Of a stretch of DNA of 64,000 bases, positions 17,468 to 63,800 are shown in pieces. This DNA is from Bacteroidales bacterium (lineage in GTDB: Bacteria; Bacteroidota; Bacteroidia; Bacteroidales; UBA932), in NCBI GenBank assembly GCA_022653735.1, contig JALCSU010000005.1:20774-84773 (forward strand), read 5' to 3'. The translations under genes and the position numbers were made by a program. The notes beneath the pieces were generated by a model, which saw nothing but the letters and a program-made list of their open reading frames with translations, was not told where the DNA came from and made no database searches. Each line of letters starts with the position of its first letter. Position 1 is the first letter of the stretch.

Positions 17468-17803
17468 TGCCGGATTTCTTCTTCTGGGTTCGCTGAAATG
17501 CAGTGGGCGGGTGATAAAGAAAGCAGGGTCATGCGCCTTATTCCCGTATATTGACTGGTTATGGCTTGAAGAGGGCTTTCTCTACAATGAGACGTAAGCG
17601 TCTCCGGAGTTACGTATTGATAGGCCGACGACTCTGAGAAGGAATCCGCCAATTGGTTTGTCGAAGTTTCAGGAATTCCATTTGATATGTGCTCAGACAT
17701 GATATATGGCGGCAATCCATGGTTGTCTACACAGCGTATCCAAAAATGTGACCTGATGATACGAGACAAAATGAAAATCGTGTCCGAAAAACGTGAAAAG
17801 AAA

Positions 17804-18168
17804 AAAGGCGGGGCTGTAAGCCGGTTTCTGTTTTAGTCTGTCATTTATCTTCGCGACCTACCCCCTGGCATCGGGCGGGCAGCCCTCATCTGCCAGTATA
17901 TTTGGTTTTGCAGGCCCTGGTGCCGTACCCATGCGACGTCACCGCCACATGTCGTGAGCTCTTGCCTCACGTTTTCACCCTTGCCCGAAGCCAGTCAGTC
18001 ATGACCCGAGGGCCGAGAGCCTGATGGCTTTCATGGCGGTAGTTTTCTGTTACTGCATCCATAAGATTACTCCCATCTGGGCTTTCCCCAGCAGGGCGCC
18101 CTATCCTGTCCGGACTTTCCTCACCCTTGGGCCGAAACCCTCGCAGCGCGACAAACCACCCCACCTTT
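17804..18168 (-). ncRNA. rnpB: RNase P RNA (class A)
   Basis: Minus strand GAGGAAAGTCCGGACAGGATAGGGCGCC...; 3' end ACAGAAACCGGCTTACAGCCCCGCCTTTTTT; 5' GGTGGGG pairs with 3' CCCCGCC (P1). Confidence 0.93.
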
Positions 18169-21423: not shown

Positions 21424-21464
21424 TTCGCCGAGAAGCGGAAATTATATTATATTTGCGGAAAATT

Positions 21465-21552
21465 AGCGGGGGTGAGGAAATGGTTGCCATTTCCCCTGAG
21501 ATCATACCCAATGAACCTGATGCGGTTAATACCGCCGTAGGGAAGCGTAATC
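21465..21552 (+). promoter_or_regulatory. TPP riboswitch (THI element)
   Basis: GCGGGGGTGAGGAAAT...CCCCTGAGATCATACCCAATGAACCTGATGCGGTTAATACCGCCGTAGGGAAGCG; TATATTTG -7 box upstream. Confidence 0.95.
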
Positions 21553-21601
21553 TCAAACATGCCACATTAGTGGCGCCCCCTTGCATTAATATTAACACAT
21601 T

Positions 21602-33586: not shown

Positions 33587-33857
33587 ATTGTTTTATCTAT
33601 ATTCCAGCCATGTAGTAATATTTGCGTCCCGGCTCGACGTAAATCTTATCCATCTAGCCTGGAACGCATCAGGGAAAACGTGGACTGTGGATTTTCCAGC
33701 CTTCAAATTGAATGCCGCATAATCCATCCCGGACTTGACCCGGAATCTGGGCTCGTTTATTCCCGTCATCCGGGCTTGACCCGGAATCTGGGCTCGCTTC
33801 TCCCTCGTCATCAGGATGGGAGTGGTGGAATTTCGCAAAGTGCTGTCGGAGCATGTC

Positions 33858-34349
33858 CTTCCGGAGGCTCTGCAAAGGGGTGCTGCTCGACAACGTGGCT
33901 CTTGGGAGGTCTCGATGTCGAGACATGCCCTTCCCTACGCACTTCTGTGTAGCCTGCCTCGACAGCGTTCTGCGAGACACTCCTTCCGAACGGTTTGAAT
34001 ATACGTATGCAATTCTTTATTGCTTCAGCATCGACAAGGTTTTATGAGACCTTGAAGAGAGGTTGTGATTATTCACAATCGTAGGCAACGGTGACATTCA
34101 TTTTAAGTGCCTAGGACACATATTCGCATTGCCAACCCCCGTTCTGGAAACCAGGTGGGCGACGCAGCCCTTCATTACAAGCCATCCGGTGGCACTATGC
34201 CGTCGCCCATAAATTCTCGTCCTTCTGGGCGAGGGCATGGATGTATACTTTGCGACCGCATCGATGACAGCCTCGCCGGCAGCCCCACATCTCACGATGA
34301 CGGGAGAAAATGTTCATCCTTCAGTCATCCGGGCTTGACTCGGAATCTA
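33858..34349 (+). repeat. Long dispersed repeat, copy A (~490 bp)
   Basis: Aligns by eye over its length with the reverse complement of 62994-63483. Confidence 0.85.
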
Positions 34350-34370
34350 TACTCGTGGAAACCAGATCCT

Positions 34371-34425
34371 GAATCAAGTTCAGGATGACGGGGTGGGTAG
34401 TTCAGGATGACGGGGTGGGTAGCGG
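34371..34425. repeat. REP-like palindrome plus 22-bp tandem units
   Basis: gatcctgaatcaagttcaggatgacggggtgggtagttcaggatgacggggtgggtag; again at 34626-34690. Confidence 0.85.
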
Positions 34426-34430
34426 CCTTG

Positions 34431-34510
34431 CGGTGTGCAGAAAGCCCGAATCGCACACCGTTCTGCCGTTCGGAGCCTTGCGGTGTGCAGAAAGCCCGAA
34501 TCGCACACCG
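34431..34510 (-). repeat. Two copies of the GTGTGC palindromic unit (period 50 bp)
   Basis: cggtgtgcagaaagcccgaatcgcacaccg at 34431 and 34481; inverse orientation of the 63572 array. Confidence 0.85.
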
Positions 34511-34720
34511 ATGAGGTGGTAGTGTGATGTTCGGCTGACGTGAAGGGTCGTAGAGGGTCATGTGTGGGCAAATGTGTTCATACTTTCCCCATTATTCCGG
34601 ACTCGATCCGGAATCTAGGCTTGCGTAAACCAGATCCTGAATCAAGTTCAGGATGACGGGGTGGGTAGTTCAGGATGACGGGGTGGGTCGTTCAGGAACT
34701 GAACCGAGTTCTGAATAACG

Positions 34721-35518: not shown

Positions 35519-35644
35519 TTGGGTTAATATTTCTGCCGTTTTGCTCGTTACAAAAATAGAAAATAAGGTAGGAAATTCAAATCTTGCATCTAAGCAAGAA
35601 ACTATCGCTTTGTCATCCTGTCGCTCGCTGTTGCCGTCGGCCTA

Positions 35645-35771
35645 GTGCTCAGGCAATACTCTTGGTGAGGCCTGGATGGTGTCCGATTATCCGGAGGGGT
35701 AAGTAGGCGGCGGGGTGCTCAGGCAATACTCTTAGTGAGGCTTGGATGGTGTCCGATTATCCGGAGGGGTA
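35645..35771. repeat. 57-bp direct duplication, period 70 bp
   Basis: gtgctcaggcaatactctt[g/a]gtgaggc[c/t]tggatggtgtccgattatccggaggggta at 35645 and 35715. Confidence 0.9.
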
Positions 35772-35776
35772 TGTGA

Positions 35777-37714
35777 TCAGGCGCAGTGGGTGGTGAGGAC
35801 TTCGGCGAAGTCTTTCACTGGGACGGTGGAGCGTTCGCTGAAGGTCTTCAGGCAGAGTGGGCAGGCAGTGACTATCGTATCAGGAGAAGCTACGGTGAGG
35901 TCTTTGATAGCTGCGTCCGTGATTTTCCGGCGGTCATTCTGGCTAAGGGTCAGGCTGCCGAGGCTGCCTCCGCAGCAGATGCTCTCGTCGTATTCATGGC
36001 CGGCCTTCACCAAGTCCCCGACTTGCCTCAGCACGGTTCGAGGCTCTTCATACACATTGCATCCTCGCCCAAGCTCACAAGGGTCGTGGTAGACTATTTT
36101 TTCTTGCGACTTGCCGACATTCAATTTACCTGCGTCGATAAGCTCTTTGAAATATTGCGTGTAGTGCACCACTCTGATGCCTACTAGGTTATATTCCTCT
36201 TTGAAGACTTTGTAGCATATCGGGCAGGAAAGTACCAGTGTCTTGCATCCTGATGCCTTGATCATGCTCTTGTTTGCGTCCATCGTCTTTGCCGCTGCTT
36301 CCGTCTTCCCAGCTAGCAGCAGAGGCCTGCCGCAGCATATTCCTCCTTCGCGGTCTGCGAAAACATATTCAATGCCGGCTTTTTTGAATATTTCCTCGAC
36401 GGCTTTTATTATTCTCGGTGTCAGATGGCTCATGCATCCGGCGAAGTAGAGGACTTTTGAGGAGTTAGATCCTGAATCAAGTTCAGGATGACGTGGGGTG
36501 GCTGGTTCAGGATGACGTGGGGTGGCTGGTTCATACAATTTCACCGGAACTGTAGCGAGGTAGGAATAGTCGTAAGGCAGGTGGTCGTTGGTGGTCTGCC
36601 TCTGGGCGCGGCGCAGGGCTGGTGCGTCCACGCTCACCGGACACAGCGCATGGCATTTGTCGCACATCAGACACTTGTCGGCGATTTCGGCAATCTTGCG
36701 CTCGTTGTGCCTGCGGAGAAATCTTATGAAATACACCGATGAATATTTCAAATTCTTCTTCTGCACGTTCATCGGGCAGGCATCCAGACAGAGTCCGCAG
36801 CTGGAGCAGGCGTAAATTTCCGCTTCCGCCACGCCTTTGCGAGGATGAGAAGGCTTCAAGCCGGCGTTCCTGAACAATATCCACAGCACCTCGGTCAAGA
36901 TGTGCATGTATCTGGAGAACGGCATGGCCGCGAAAAAGGTTCCCAGGCAAATTGAATATGCCCACCAGAAAGGCTGAAAATAGAGCTTGTCGCCGAACAG
37001 GAAGTGCAGCAGGTGGTTCATCCCCAGCGTGAGGAAACTGCCACCGCTGAGGTCAGCAGTAAAGCTCTCCGCCAGAAGCCTCAGGGGAAATATCATCCAA
37101 AGGCTGTACAGGGCAACCCGGTCTGCGAGCGACGGCTTGGTGGTGTGACGCATTCCAAGCACTATGGACCTGAACCGCTTGAACATTGCCAGGCCTATGC
37201 CAGTAAGCACGTATAGCAGGAAGAAATCCATCAGGAAGAAGAAGAAAGCTCCGCGCAGGCTCTCATGCCCTGGCCTTATCCACACGAAGTACCTGTAGAA
37301 AATAGGGTAAAAGAGTCCTCCTTCCCCGTAGCTCAGATGCTTAGGCACGAAAAGCGCCACTTCGACATGCCCCAGCACTATCAGCATGAACCAGCCGAAA
37401 GCTATGGCAGAATGCATATAGCCCAGCAGAGGCTTCCGCTGCCAGATTTTGGTATGGAATAGGCAGTCGCAGAACAAGTCCCTTATGTTCTTGCCGGCGG
37501 TGATCGGATTCAGCAGAGATGTCCAGAATTTCATTCTGTCGTCGTGGTTCAGCTGAATGAGCACTCTAATGAAACCCACGAATATCCAGACAAGGAAAAA
37601 CGTGATGCCGGCGACGAAAGGAATGACGAAGTGGCTGTACGAAGATGGTATGCGGTCGATTACCTCAGGCGATGCTTGAGCAGCCAGGATTGGGAATATA
37701 TTGGCAGGCATCAT
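35777..37714 (-). CDS. Membrane (NarI/HdrE-like) plus HdrD-like Fe-S/CCG-domain fusion protein
   Basis: N-terminal TM helices; CSSCGLCLDACP and CLMCDKCHALCP; CCG domains YFAGCMSHL...GGICCGRP and HDPCELGRG...SICCGGSLG. Confidence 0.85.
   Translation of the reverse strand: MMPANIFPILAAQASPEVIDRIPSSYSHFVIPFVAGITFFLVWIFVGFIRVLIQLNHDDRMKFWTSLLNPITAGKNIRDLFCDCLFHTKIWQRKPLLGYMHSAIAFGWFMLIVLGHVEVALFVPKHLSYGEGGLFYPIFYRYFVWIRPGHESLRGAFFFFLMDFFLLYVLTGIGLAMFKRFRSIVLGMRHTTKPSLADRVALYSLWMIFPLRLLAESFTADLSGGSFLTLGMNHLLHFLFGDKLYFQPFWWAYSICLGTFFAAMPFSRYMHILTEVLWILFRNAGLKPSHPRKGVAEAEIYACSSCGLCLDACPMNVQKKNLKYSSVYFIRFLRRHNERKIAEIADKCLMCDKCHALCPVSVDAPALRRAQRQTTNDHLPYDYSYLATVPVKLYEPATPRHPEPATPRHPELDSGSNSSKVLYFAGCMSHLTPRIIKAVEEIFKKAGIEYVFADREGGICCGRPLLLAGKTEAAAKTMDANKSMIKASGCKTLVLSCPICYKVFKEEYNLVGIRVVHYTQYFKELIDAGKLNVGKSQEKIVYHDPCELGRGCNVYEEPRTVLRQVGDLVKAGHEYDESICCGGSLGSLTLSQNDRRKITDAAIKDLTVASPDTIVTACPLCLKTFSERSTVPVKDFAEVLTTHCA
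36464..36532. repeat. Dispersed REP-like element inserted in frame inside the HdrD-like CDS
   Basis: ttagatcctgaatcaagttcaggatgacgtggggtggctggttcaggatgacgtggggtggctggtt; encodes EPATPRHPEPATPRHPELDSGS. Confidence 0.85.
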
Positions 37715-38043
37715 TTTTTCTTTGAATATATTTTAGCGATCGACAGAATAAGGTGCCTGGTGTTTATGCCGCGCGGGCAGACCATCGTGCATTTCCCGCA
37801 CAGCTGGCAGCCTTTCAACATATTCATAGCAACCTCGTCCCGACCGTTCTGTAATTCTTCTATAGCGGCTCTCAGGCTCGTCGGCGTGAACTTCCCAGCC
37901 GTGCAGACGGCAGTGCAGCTGCCACAGGCGATGCATTTCCGCACGTCGGGCTCTGCTGCAGCCAGAGAGTCGAATTTTTCCTTGTCGAAAAGATCCAGAT
38001 TGATCCTTGAGCTTGCTAACAGCCCGAAACCGAAATCTACCAT
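37711..38043 (-). CDS. HdrC-like 4Fe-4S protein
   Basis: CIACGSCTAVCTAGKF and CQLCGKCTMVCPRGI. Confidence 0.85.
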   Translation of the reverse strand: MVDFGFGLLASSRINLDLFDKEKFDSLAAAEPDVRKCIACGSCTAVCTAGKFTPTSLRAAIEELQNGRDEVAMNMLKGCQLCGKCTMVCPRGINTRHLILSIAKIYSKKK

Positions 38044-39092
38044 GCCGTCTTGATCAATTGTTTGAGGTCTTTTGCTTTCGGGAATATGGCGCTGAGGTAT
38101 TTGTCTATCTGTGTAGCAGCCCCTCTGGCATCGGCGAGCGTGTCCGGGAGAGTTTTAGGCCCGGTGGCAGCGCCGGCAAGGAAAAGCCCCGGTATCGGGC
38201 TGCGCTGCTGCGACGTGATTTCGCTCAGCACCTCGAAGTAGCCATCCTTCTCGTTCTGCATGCCCAGCAGACTGCCTATTCTTTGACCAGAAACCGACGG
38301 TCTCATGCCAGCCATCAGCACCAACAGGTCGAGGGAAACCTTCAGAGGCTTGCTAGAAACCGTGTCCTCAGCCTTGACGGAAAGGCTTCCGTCAATGTTT
38401 TCGGACACTTCTGCCACCCTGCCACGTATGAAGCGGATGCCGTAGTCCCTCTGCGCTTCGAGATACATGTCCTCGTAATGCCTTCCGAACATGCGCAGAT
38501 CCATATAGAAGCAATATATTTGTGCATCAGGAAAGGCAGCTTTCATCTCGCAGGCCTGCTTCACGGCAGTTGCGCAGCAAACCTTGGAGCAGGAGCGGCA
38601 CCCAGACTTTTCGTCCCTCGACCCCACGCAGTGCACGAAGCCGATTTTCTTGGGAGCGTTGATTCTTGCGTCCAGGCCGGTCTTGAAATATTGCTCCAAA
38701 TCAGCGTTCGTAATCACGTGGTCATATATTCCGTAACCATATTCCTCTTTCTTCTCGGCCTGGAACAGGTCGAAGCCCGTTGCAACCAGCACTGCGTCCG
38801 CCAGCACCGTGATGCCGTTGGAAAGAATGACATTGTAGGATTTGCCCAACCTGTTTATGGACTGTATCTCGGTGTCAATGAAACATTTGACTCCATCCAT
38901 GCTGCCCAGTAGCTTGTCCAGGGCTCCGGATGCCGGAGTCCCGCTGGGGAAAAGCCTGTCCCATTTGCCCAGGTGCCCCCCAAGCGTGTTGGAATGCTCC
39001 ACCAGCAGCACATTGTATCCAAGCCTTTGCAAATTCGCTCCTGCCTCTAGCCCGGCAGGCCCTCCGCCTATTATCAGTACGTTATTTCTCAT
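38037..39092 (-). CDS. HdrA-like FAD-dependent oxidoreductase
   Basis: VLIIGGGPAGLEAGANLQRLGYNVLLVEHSNTLGGHLGKW; FVHCVGSRDEKSGCRSCSKVCC. Confidence 0.88.
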   Translation of the reverse strand: MRNNVLIIGGGPAGLEAGANLQRLGYNVLLVEHSNTLGGHLGKWDRLFPSGTPASGALDKLLGSMDGVKCFIDTEIQSINRLGKSYNVILSNGITVLADAVLVATGFDLFQAEKKEEYGYGIYDHVITNADLEQYFKTGLDARINAPKKIGFVHCVGSRDEKSGCRSCSKVCCATAVKQACEMKAAFPDAQIYCFYMDLRMFGRHYEDMYLEAQRDYGIRFIRGRVAEVSENIDGSLSVKAEDTVSSKPLKVSLDLLVLMAGMRPSVSGQRIGSLLGMQNEKDGYFEVLSEITSQQRSPIPGLFLAGAATGPKTLPDTLADARGAATQIDKYLSAIFPKAKDLKQLIKTAW

Positions 39093-39113
39093 ATTCCTTT
39101 CATATTGTCAGAA

Positions 39114-40178
39114 TTACTTGATGCAGGATGGGCATGCAGGCCTCCCGATGTCTTGCCCCTTTGCCCCGAGATATTTCCTCTCCGGGTCATATTGAATGCC
39201 CATTTTATCCAGCAGCGGCTCTGCTCCCACCTGATGCGTCTGAAGCCCCAGGTCCCAAGGGTCGTAGCCCAGCACGAGTCCCATCATCTCTTCGTAGGTC
39301 AGCACCGGAATGCCGTGACTGCCTTCGCCGTAGGTCTTTCCCGTCTCCTCGGCTATCACGTACTGCCATCTGTCCATGAAATATGGGCATCCAGGGCAGT
39401 TGGTGACAATGAAGTCTGGATGGTAAGGCTCCATGCTTTCGAATTTCTTATAAGTATTGGACAATGAATATCCTCTATTCGCCTTTATGAAGTATTGCCT
39501 GAACCCGAAGCCACAGCAGTGCCGCCTCTCAGGGTAGTCCACCACCGTGCCTCCGCATGCCTCCACCATTCCAGCCAGTACGTAGGGATATTCCGCTCCG
39601 CCCACGCCCTTGGATGGGAACATCTTAGAATAGTGGCAGCCTATGTGCTCCACGACTCTCAGCGGCTCGCCGGTGTGCACGTTGATAAGTTTGTGCTTTG
39701 CGAGGGCGGCTATCTGGTTCCTGTAATGATAGATGAGGTCGCTGGCATGCACGATGTATTTGGGCTTGGCAAAATCCAGACGGCACGTCTTCCATAAAGT
39801 CTCGGCGATTTTTTCCTGGAGCTCCGGGAACTCTCTCCAAGTCTCAAGGGTCTCGCAGTAGAGTCCGAAAGAGGTTATGCAAGAGCAGACGTAGTTCTCG
39901 TAGCCATATTTCGCCATTAGGGCGAACTGGCGGGCTATTATTGTCATCACCGTCTCCTGTGGGATTGCGTCTGAATGGTAGGCGATTCCTCCGCAGGTGG
40001 TGTGATGCTCTGTCTCGAATATGTCTTTTCCAAGCTTGTTCCTGGTTATGTCCAGGAATGCCGCCTCAGAAGCAGGGAAGAAGCTCTGCCTGATGCAGCT
40101 GCGGACATAAAAATAATGATCGTCTGGGATTTCTTTCTGATATTCCGACCAAATCTTTTGCTTTCCTTCGTAAATCAT
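39114..40178 (-). CDS. HdrB-like CCG-domain protein
   Basis: VEHIGCHYSKMFP...YPERRHCCGFGFRQ...VTNCPGCPYFMDRWQ. Confidence 0.82.
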   Translation of the reverse strand: MIYEGKQKIWSEYQKEIPDDHYFYVRSCIRQSFFPASEAAFLDITRNKLGKDIFETEHHTTCGGIAYHSDAIPQETVMTIIARQFALMAKYGYENYVCSCITSFGLYCETLETWREFPELQEKIAETLWKTCRLDFAKPKYIVHASDLIYHYRNQIAALAKHKLINVHTGEPLRVVEHIGCHYSKMFPSKGVGGAEYPYVLAGMVEACGGTVVDYPERRHCCGFGFRQYFIKANRGYSLSNTYKKFESMEPYHPDFIVTNCPGCPYFMDRWQYVIAEETGKTYGEGSHGIPVLTYEEMMGLVLGYDPWDLGLQTHQVGAEPLLDKMGIQYDPERKYLGAKGQDIGRPACPSCIK

Positions 40179-42976: not shown

Positions 42977-43099
42977 GCCAAGCCCCTTGAATATTCCGGA
43001 TTTTTGCGTCACCGCTCCCATGTGATGCACACCGCACGACCCGAACCCCCGTCCCTGTGTGCAATTCGGCGCTTCTGCACACCGCAAGGCCACGAACCA

Positions 43100-43215
43100 C
43101 CGCCGTCATCCTGCACGACCCACTCCGTCATCCTGCACGACCCACTCCGTCATCCTGAACTTGATTCAGGAACTGTTTTTCGCATACCCAGATTCCTGGT
43201 CAAGCCCGGATGACG
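43100..43215. repeat. REP-like dispersed repeats
   Basis: gtcatcctgcacgacccactcc x2 then gtcatcctgaacttgattcagg...cagattcctggtcaagcccggatgac. Confidence 0.8.
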
Positions 43216-44278: not shown

Positions 44279-44405
44279 CATCCTGAACGACTCACCCGTC
44301 ATCCTGAACTTGTTTCAGGATCTAGTGTCCATGAGCCTAGATTCCGGATCAGGTCCGGAATGACGTGGAAAAGCGAGCCTAGATTCCGTGTCAAGCCCGG
44401 ATGAC
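44279..44405. repeat. REP-like dispersed repeats
   Basis: gtcatcctgaacttgtttcaggatct...gcctagattccggatcaggtccggaatgac... Confidence 0.8.
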
Positions 44406-61815: not shown

Positions 61816-62111
61816 TTCATGCGGTTTTGCCATGCCGAGCACCGGCTTGCGCATATGGATCAATGAGATAAGTGCCAGCATCCTAAACCACCAACCCCGT
61901 CACCCTAAGCCACTTACGCTCCACATCCTAAACGACCCACCACGTCATCCTGAACTTGATTCAGGATCTGCTTTTTGCGGACCAAGTCCAAAAACCTGTG
62001 TTTAAGAATATAATTGTGAATATGCACCAGCCCTTTCTGACCCTCCTGAAGCTGGATAGTGTTGGTAATCTTTAGATTATGGCTTGAGGGGATTGCGGTC
62101 GGATTTGGAAC

Positions 62112-62690: not shown

Positions 62691-62993
62691 TAATTCCGGA
62701 ACAAATTTAAGAATAATTTTTCGTGTACAAAAATGGTACGCACAAACTATCTAAATTCAACACGTTATTGCCGGATTAAGTCCAAAACCCTGTGTTAAAG
62801 AATATACACTGTGTTTAAGAATACACCCCGTCATCCTAAGCCACTCACGCTCCACATCCTAAACGACCCACCACGTCATCCTGAACGACCACCCCTGTCA
62901 TCCTGAAACGACCCACCACGTCATCCTGAACTTGATTCAGGATCTGTTCTTCGCAAGCCTAGATTCCGGATCGAGTCCGGATGACGGGGATAA

Positions 62994-63483: not shown

Positions 63484-63571
63484 CGGATGACGGTGGCAGT
63501 ATGAACACATTTGCCCACACATGACCCTCTATGATCCTTCACTTCAGCTGAACATCGCACTACCACATCAT

Positions 63572-63800
63572 CGGTGTGCGATTCGGGCGTTCTACACACC
63601 GCGTGGTCCCGAACCGCAGTAACGGTGTGCGATTTGGGCTTTCTGCACACCGCGAGGTCCTGAAACCCCATCACGGTGTGCGAATCGGGCTTCTTGCACA
63701 CCGCGAGGTCCTGAAACCCCATCACGGTGTGCGATTTGGGCTTTCTGCACACCGCGAGGTCCTGAAACCCCATCACGGTGTGCGATTCGGGCTTATTGCA
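63572..63800 (+). repeat. 51-bp tandem array, about 4.5 units
   Basis: cggtgtgcgatttgggctttctgcacaccgcgaggtcctgaaaccccatca; unit starts 63572, 63623, 63674, 63725, 63776. Confidence 0.95.

Follow-up and report, generated by a model that had tools for sequence, protein, structure and literature searches.

The gene for an HdrD-like membrane iron-sulfur protein, in the 64-kb stretch of Bacteroidales DNA analysed here (the window), carries in its reading frame a palindrome and a tandem array that are otherwise dispersed mostly between genes. How did such a repeat become protein sequence, and was its unit length adjusted to the frame of the gene, as the original prediction proposed? We conclude, with a probability of roughly 0.9, that a REP-type palindrome of the CGTC-tagged kind, from a family of ~85 copies expanded in this species, landed in a hypervariable linker of the HdrD-like protein and persists because its 66 bp and its sequence keep the frame and the linker tolerates 22 residues. 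Protein-coding palindromes have so far been portrayed for the most part as peculiar to Rickettsia and Wolbachia; the window element indicates that an ordinary REP can turn into protein sequence on hitting a tolerant linker.

The element in the HdrD-like gene

The features of the window that bear on this question are collected in Table 1. Pfam places Fer4_8 at residues 300-362 and CCG at residues 421-504 of the HdrD-like ORF, and thus the insert (residues 395-416) lies between the ferredoxin and CCG domains, with the frame of the ORF uninterrupted through the element. The identity of the HdrD-like reductase and of its HdrC-, HdrA- and HdrB-like neighbours is based on agreement of NCBIfam and PDB matches.

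Table 1. Coordinates of the insert, its host gene and the other copies of the repeat in the window
Feature	Position	Strand	Remarks
In-frame CGTC-type REP insert	36467..36532	-	66 bp = 22 codons; predicted peptide EPATPRHPEPATPRHPELDSGS, residues 395-416 of the HdrD-like ORF; limits by position arithmetic
Full palindrome	36468..36492	-	8-bp stem ATCCTGAA/TTCAGGAT, 5-nt loop, CGTC tag before the palindrome; reading in gene direction CGTCATCCTGAACTTGATTCAGGATC
2.2 copies of 24-bp half-site unit, mutually identical	36481..36533	-	Plus-strand unit GTTCAGGATGACGTGGGGTGGCTG
HdrD-like membrane iron-sulfur protein, 645 aa	35777..37714	-	N-terminal membrane part, 4Fe-4S dicluster 300-362, CCG domains from 421
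ORFs resembling HdrC, HdrA, HdrB (37711-38043, 38037-39092, 39114-40178)	37711..40178	-	Neighbours of the HdrD-like gene, redox cluster context
Intergenic copy, palindrome and 22-bp half-site array	34364..34422	-	
Intergenic copy, palindrome and 22-bp half-site array	34632..34697	-	With flank, 90% direct repeat of 34328-34420
Copy with 22-bp array, palindrome with 1 mismatch	43091..43173	+	
Copy, 1 mismatch, CTTGTTTC loop type	44298..44322	+	
Copy with 22-bp array	61879..61968	+	
Copy with 22-bp array	62855..62944	+	

The 25-mer GATCCTGAATCAAGTTCAGGATGAC has seven matches in the window at ≤3 mismatches, compared to an expectation of 0.00, and these include 34365-34389, 34633-34657 and 36468-36492. 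The tandem period is 22 at both 34377-34422 and 34645-34697, and 24 at 36481-36533. The seven matches, the open ORF and the Pfam domains confirm that a dispersed palindrome with its tandem lies in frame in the linker that joins the ferredoxin and CCG domains, and the periods of 22 bp between genes and 24 bp in the coding sequence are those originally claimed; the two intergenic copies also exist, but the positions first given for them (34371-34425 and 34626-34690) deviate by a few bases. When folded as DNA, the insert is only slightly more stable than shuffled sequences (z -1.49), the lone 8-bp hairpin being short, and the fold does not count as evidence here. A search of Rfam at the element found no family.

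The window also contains other repeats. A 67-bp direct repeat (91% identical) occupies 35638-35774, immediately downstream of the HdrD-like gene. A second CGTC-like hairpin type (CCGGACTTGACCCGGAATCT) forms a tandem at 33729-33804 and is the inverted partner of both intergenic palindromes, at 34329-34363 and 34597-34631. A further repeat, GGTGTGC...GCACACC with GATTCGGGCTTTC inside, is found at 34425-34510 and 63562-63794, both as a pair of identical 36-bp copies and as a tandem with 4.5 units of 51 bp. Outside of these repeats, we noted a class A RNase P RNA at 17801-18167 and a TPP riboswitch at 21458-21561.

A CGTC-tagged family, depleted from genes

The genome to which the window belongs is a 2.45 Mb draft of 66 contigs, estimated as 76% complete, and in it the palindrome CTGAACTTGNTTCAGGA occurs in 70 exact copies and in 85 copies at ≤1 mismatch, compared to none for the reversed-pattern control. 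Among 60 other species of the genus, the exact palindrome was found in one genome at a single site, and thus the family is expanded in the window species. A 26-mer of the palindrome is matched exactly elsewhere, in at least 112 stretches that represent many phyla, with hosts that include Sphingomonas, Sulfurimonas, Vibrio, Pedobacter, Prevotella, Armatimonadota and Patescibacteria.

The anatomy of the family was read from 84 copies. In its usual form, an array of ~22-bp half-sites (CGTCATCCTGAAC followed by ~9 bases) precedes a full hairpin, CGTC-ATCCTGAA-CTTGA-TTCAGGAT-CT; the tag is CGTC in 68 copies and TGTC in 3, and the half-site arrays lie on the CGTC side. Copies end with CT and then a variable base, with TCT following the conserved 17-mer in 74 of the 84 (the ATCT end), and beyond this end 33 copies have an inverted hairpin with a different stem, ATTCCGGATC.AGTCCGGA.

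These properties are for the most part those of the CGTC-tagged REPs (Di Nocera, De Gregorio and Rocco 2013, PMC3733652), which that paper describes as having a terminal unpaired CGTC (or TGTC/CCTC), stems of 8-9 bp that start with AT and loops of 4-5 bp (8 and 5 bp, respectively, in family 2), and as occurring in five phyla, including Bacteroidetes, with intragenic copies in several species, tolerance in linkers and no dedicated transposase. Similarly, the window family has an unpaired CGTC (TGTC in 3 copies) at one end, an 8-bp stem that starts with AT and a 5-nt loop in the DNA fold, and it is present in high copy number, mostly between genes, with possible dimers and some in-frame intragenic copies. 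We found neither a dedicated transposase flanked by the repeat nor a match to Y1_Tnp (Y1/RAYT transposase) in the 76% complete genome. The absence of a Y1_Tnp gene there, together with the CGTC tag, distinguishes the family from the GTAG REPs mobilised by RAYT. Two features set the window family apart: half-site arrays (CGTCATCCTGAACN9), which precede most copies here, are not described in the sections of the paper that were consulted, and in 33 of 84 copies the stem of the inverted partner is of another sequence. As for tail and dimer form, the published REPs mostly have a short unpaired tail fitting CCA and predominantly form head-to-head dimers; the copies here end in CT and a variable base, not CCA, and their inverted partners, where present, lie beyond the ATCT end. 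We are highly confident that the window copy belongs to this already published superfamily. The remark in the original prediction that no described equivalent was known is not supported, since the literature already records CGTC-tagged REPs in Bacteroidetes and, in several species, REPs inside genes.

The spacing of half-sites across the genome varies between 20 and 25 bp: 85 spacings are of 22 bp, 22 of 23 bp, 8 of 21 bp, 5 of 24 bp, 3 of 25 bp and 2 of 20 bp. Units of 24 bp are also found at two copies outside genes (L196 and L198). Since only ~10% of the units are multiples of 3, the HdrD-like copy is one of the few with a gene-compatible length. The proposal of a unit adjusted to 24 bp is thus not borne out; the unit is better read as a rare normal variant of a distribution with its mode at 22 bp, and we prefer survivorship to adjustment as its explanation.

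ORFs of ≥200 aa contain only 5 of the 84 copies, compared to 68% of random 85-bp windows from the same loci, and the family is therefore strongly depleted from genes. About four copies are internal to conserved genes and in frame: those in the HdrD-like gene, TrmB (L025), MetH (L212) and a short FabA/Z-like ORF (L208), the last, with a weak Pfam match, probably internal but the least certain of the four. The MetH copy lies in the linker that joins the pterin-binding domain to the B12-binding domain, and both arms of its stem are altered with pairing kept. Within the window itself, preservation of the frame is seen in a single case, to which TrmB and MetH add two. Several other candidates were set aside. 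L023 and L028, two of the five copies in ORFs of ≥200 aa, are unconvincing as internal insertions. At L023, L195, L189 and L013 (a TonB-receptor-like ORF, UvrC, MurF and a deformylase-like ORF), the element is at or before the likely gene start and is probably non-coding. The long ORFs at the CGTC copies of L191, L201 and L204 have no Pfam match and were left out of the count.

Unrelated palindromes in the same linkers of congeners

The sites of insertion in the HdrD-like protein, TrmB and MetH are all hypervariable among congeners, and in the HdrD-like orthologues the linker varies in both length and sequence. Orthologues with the same linker but no REPs would have refuted the original prediction; no orthologue has this linker, and the prediction was thus not refuted by this test. 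The closest orthologue (76% identity), from genome G017, has a linker with a different repeat, which has 28 matches in the G017 genome. The linker repeat in G017 and in G049 is a covarying hairpin of ~84 bp, unrelated to the window palindrome, and the linker of G020 is shorter. If the 27 residues of the hairpin are removed from the G017 linker, what is left is SAVPETALTESKSP, compared to SAVPVHTATEGNAP in G020, as is expected of a clean insertion. For the window gene, insertion is deduced from this comparison of congeners, at 76% identity to the nearest. A third palindrome, GTGCCACCCTCGGCAC (≤1 mismatch), which is dispersed in many congeners, is present in the TrmB loop of G008 and G015 (L230 and L217) and in the MetH linker of G017 (L247), and the MetH linkers of G008 and G024 have CGTC-type hairpins with other stems. 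The TrmB loops of G005, G006 and G004 (L215, L218 and L225) contain peptides such as VISSEAEGGVEKSP and LDSASGSARNDN that resemble translations of further repeat families.

We suggest that copies of the CGTC family arise mostly at random with respect to genes and that nearly all coding copies would be purged. A 24-bp unit could survive in the HdrD-like gene where units of 22 or 23 bp would shift the frame, and the insert would persist because a net 66 bp and its sequence leave the frame open and the linker accommodates 22 extra residues. The predicted insert peptide is most likely neutral filling of the linker.

It is very unlikely that the palindrome was instead selected for a peptide with a function in the HdrD-like protein and that its unit was tuned to 24 bp. 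Such tuning is suggested by the contrast between the 24-bp unit in this gene and the 22-bp units of the neighbouring intergenic copies, and the identity of the two 24-bp units fits a recent duplication. However, the genome-wide spread of unit lengths includes 24 bp outside genes, congeners do with shorter or unrelated HdrD linkers, and the insert peptide is the generic translation of a widespread palindrome. Still less likely is an artefact of assembly or binning, in which arrays in a fragmented draft were collapsed or misjoined. Tandem repeats are prone to mis-assembly and the draft has 66 contigs, but the 645-aa ORF is open with the ferredoxin and CCG domains in one frame, the copies in TrmB and MetH are independently in frame, and the HdrD linker bears repeats in two other genomes (G017 and G049). 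Finally, although chance likeness is conceivable in a hypervariable linker, we consider an ancestral linker with fortuitous resemblance to the repeat to be negligibly probable, as intergenic copies have exactly the same 25-bp palindrome, for which chance predicts 0 matches, and no orthologue carries it.

A probable protein-coding hairpin family in sister species

The ~84-bp hairpin of the G017 and G049 linkers combines a constant core, TCCATYCTCGCTTCGCTGCGGCTGAGTACGG, with arms that vary among copies yet remain complementary. Of 101 sampled genomes of the genus, 11 contain the core TCCATNCTCGCTNCGCTGCGGCTGAGTA (≤2 mismatches), compared to none for the reversed pattern, and the core had no match in the window species. 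We read 24 copies in G017 and 43 copies in G058, G088, G106 and G049 (loci L286-L306 and L331-L370). In-frame copies in ORFs of ≥200 aa number 21 of 24 and 40 of 43, respectively, for a total of 61/67 (91%), compared to 84% of random windows; thus, in contrast to the CGTC family of the window genome, this family is not excluded from genes. Among 69 copies, outer stem pairs vary but stay complementary (one pair is C-G in 28, G-C in 15, A-T in 4 and T-A in 4), with covariation read from the raw pair counts, in which two-sided changes at many pairs are evident, and the mean RNA fold is -49 kcal/mol.

The hosts of the hairpin in G017, based on Pfam, are FtsK, MetRS, GH2, GH31, GH95, KsgA (two copies), DnaG, TldD, a HAD phosphatase, ATP synthase gamma (two copies), ATP synthase subunit a, PriA, TruB, peptidase U32 and others, and the sets in G058, G088, G106 and G049 are similar; host genes across the five species include ftsK, dnaG, metG, atpG, truB and priA, and the host proteins also include AtpB. 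Predicted peptide stretches encoded by the hairpin in AtpG, MetRS or FtsK include GRVHSRFAAAEYGL and RPYSAAAKRGWTRPG. Relative to solved structures of ATP synthase gamma, residues 72-114 stand in place of 15 residues and residues 245-279 in place of 5, and this excess of 28 and 30 residues coincides with the two hairpin copies.

The two copies in ATP synthase gamma of G017 (L297:1688-2761) are in opposite orientations, both in frame. TruB of G058 (L331:1202-2398) contains two overlapping or nested copies, and TruB is also a host in G017 and G106; RPE-1 has been reported in the TruB gene of Rickettsia conorii, according to PMC3733652.

The comparison to Rickettsia elements, which the original prediction made for the window palindrome, is apt in that, according to PMC3733652, RPE-6 and RPE-4 of R. 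conorii are CGTC-1 and CGTC-4 repeats. The likeness of the window family to RPE-4 and RPE-6, which extends to in-frame copies, rests on the CGTC type and ATGAC motif described in PMC3733652 and PMC3767692 rather than on an alignment. As in Rickettsia, different elements occupy the same or nearby places in orthologues (PMC3767692); the window family differs in stem sequence and host, and ~5% of its copies in the window species are coding. Both the window element and the hairpin are palindromes in frame in ORFs of known function that remain intact, as RPEs are, but the Rickettsia analogy fits best a different element from the one for which it was drawn, the hairpin family of sister species. Like RPE-1 to RPE-3, the hairpin in G017, G049, G058, G088 and G106 is a long palindrome that lies in frame in many housekeeping genes unrelated to one another, with shared orthologous sites. 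In this comparison, made by organisation rather than by sequence, the hairpin differs in its length (~84 bp versus 100-150 bp) and in its use of several frames and both orientations. PARCELs (palindromic amphipathic repeat coding elements, PMC2996958) similarly code for protein, have dyad symmetry and are scattered through genomes, but they form 25-residue domains in tandem, within ORFs to which no function has been assigned, while the elements described here are single inserts in housekeeping proteins. A search of the literature, with most subscription journals outside its reach, found no report of such elements for Bacteroidales.

Very probably, the genus harbours a separate, truly protein-coding palindrome of ~84 bp. 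Coding DNA would have been colonised by it much as in Rickettsia, but in a separate lineage, and inversion in place may exchange one inserted peptide for another. In this genus, palindromic families unrelated to one another have repeatedly entered the same linkers of proteins, and most copies of one of them lie inside essential genes. With many sequenced species, insertion, inversion and loss can be traced at orthologous sites, and since the history of the elements is traceable in this manner, the spread of palindromes through coding DNA becomes testable outside obligate intracellular bacteria.

With respect to how the hairpin moves, Y1_Tnp matches were obtained in all seven hairpin-bearing genomes tested (the window genome is the one hairpin-free genome tested), and we hypothesize that Y1_Tnp enzymes play a role in its spread. 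As a candidate mobiliser of the hairpin, RAYT is linked by association only; the hairpin core was absent from all six stretches read at Y1_Tnp loci.

At an orthologous site in the GH2 gene, the inserted sequence is VTTVIAGSAGQPLEPGRVHSRFAAAEYDRGSTAAPADEAYITV in G017 and VTTVIPMEAGAAAGHRPYSAAAKRGWTRTSPDSRPADEAYITV in G058, from hairpins in opposite orientations that are in frame in both species. Our preferred reading is inversion in place between the inverted arms, which we rank above independent insertion of two hairpins at one site. Both orientations are also found in the DnaG, GH31, HHH_3 and transglutaminase-like genes, with less exact agreement of the sites.
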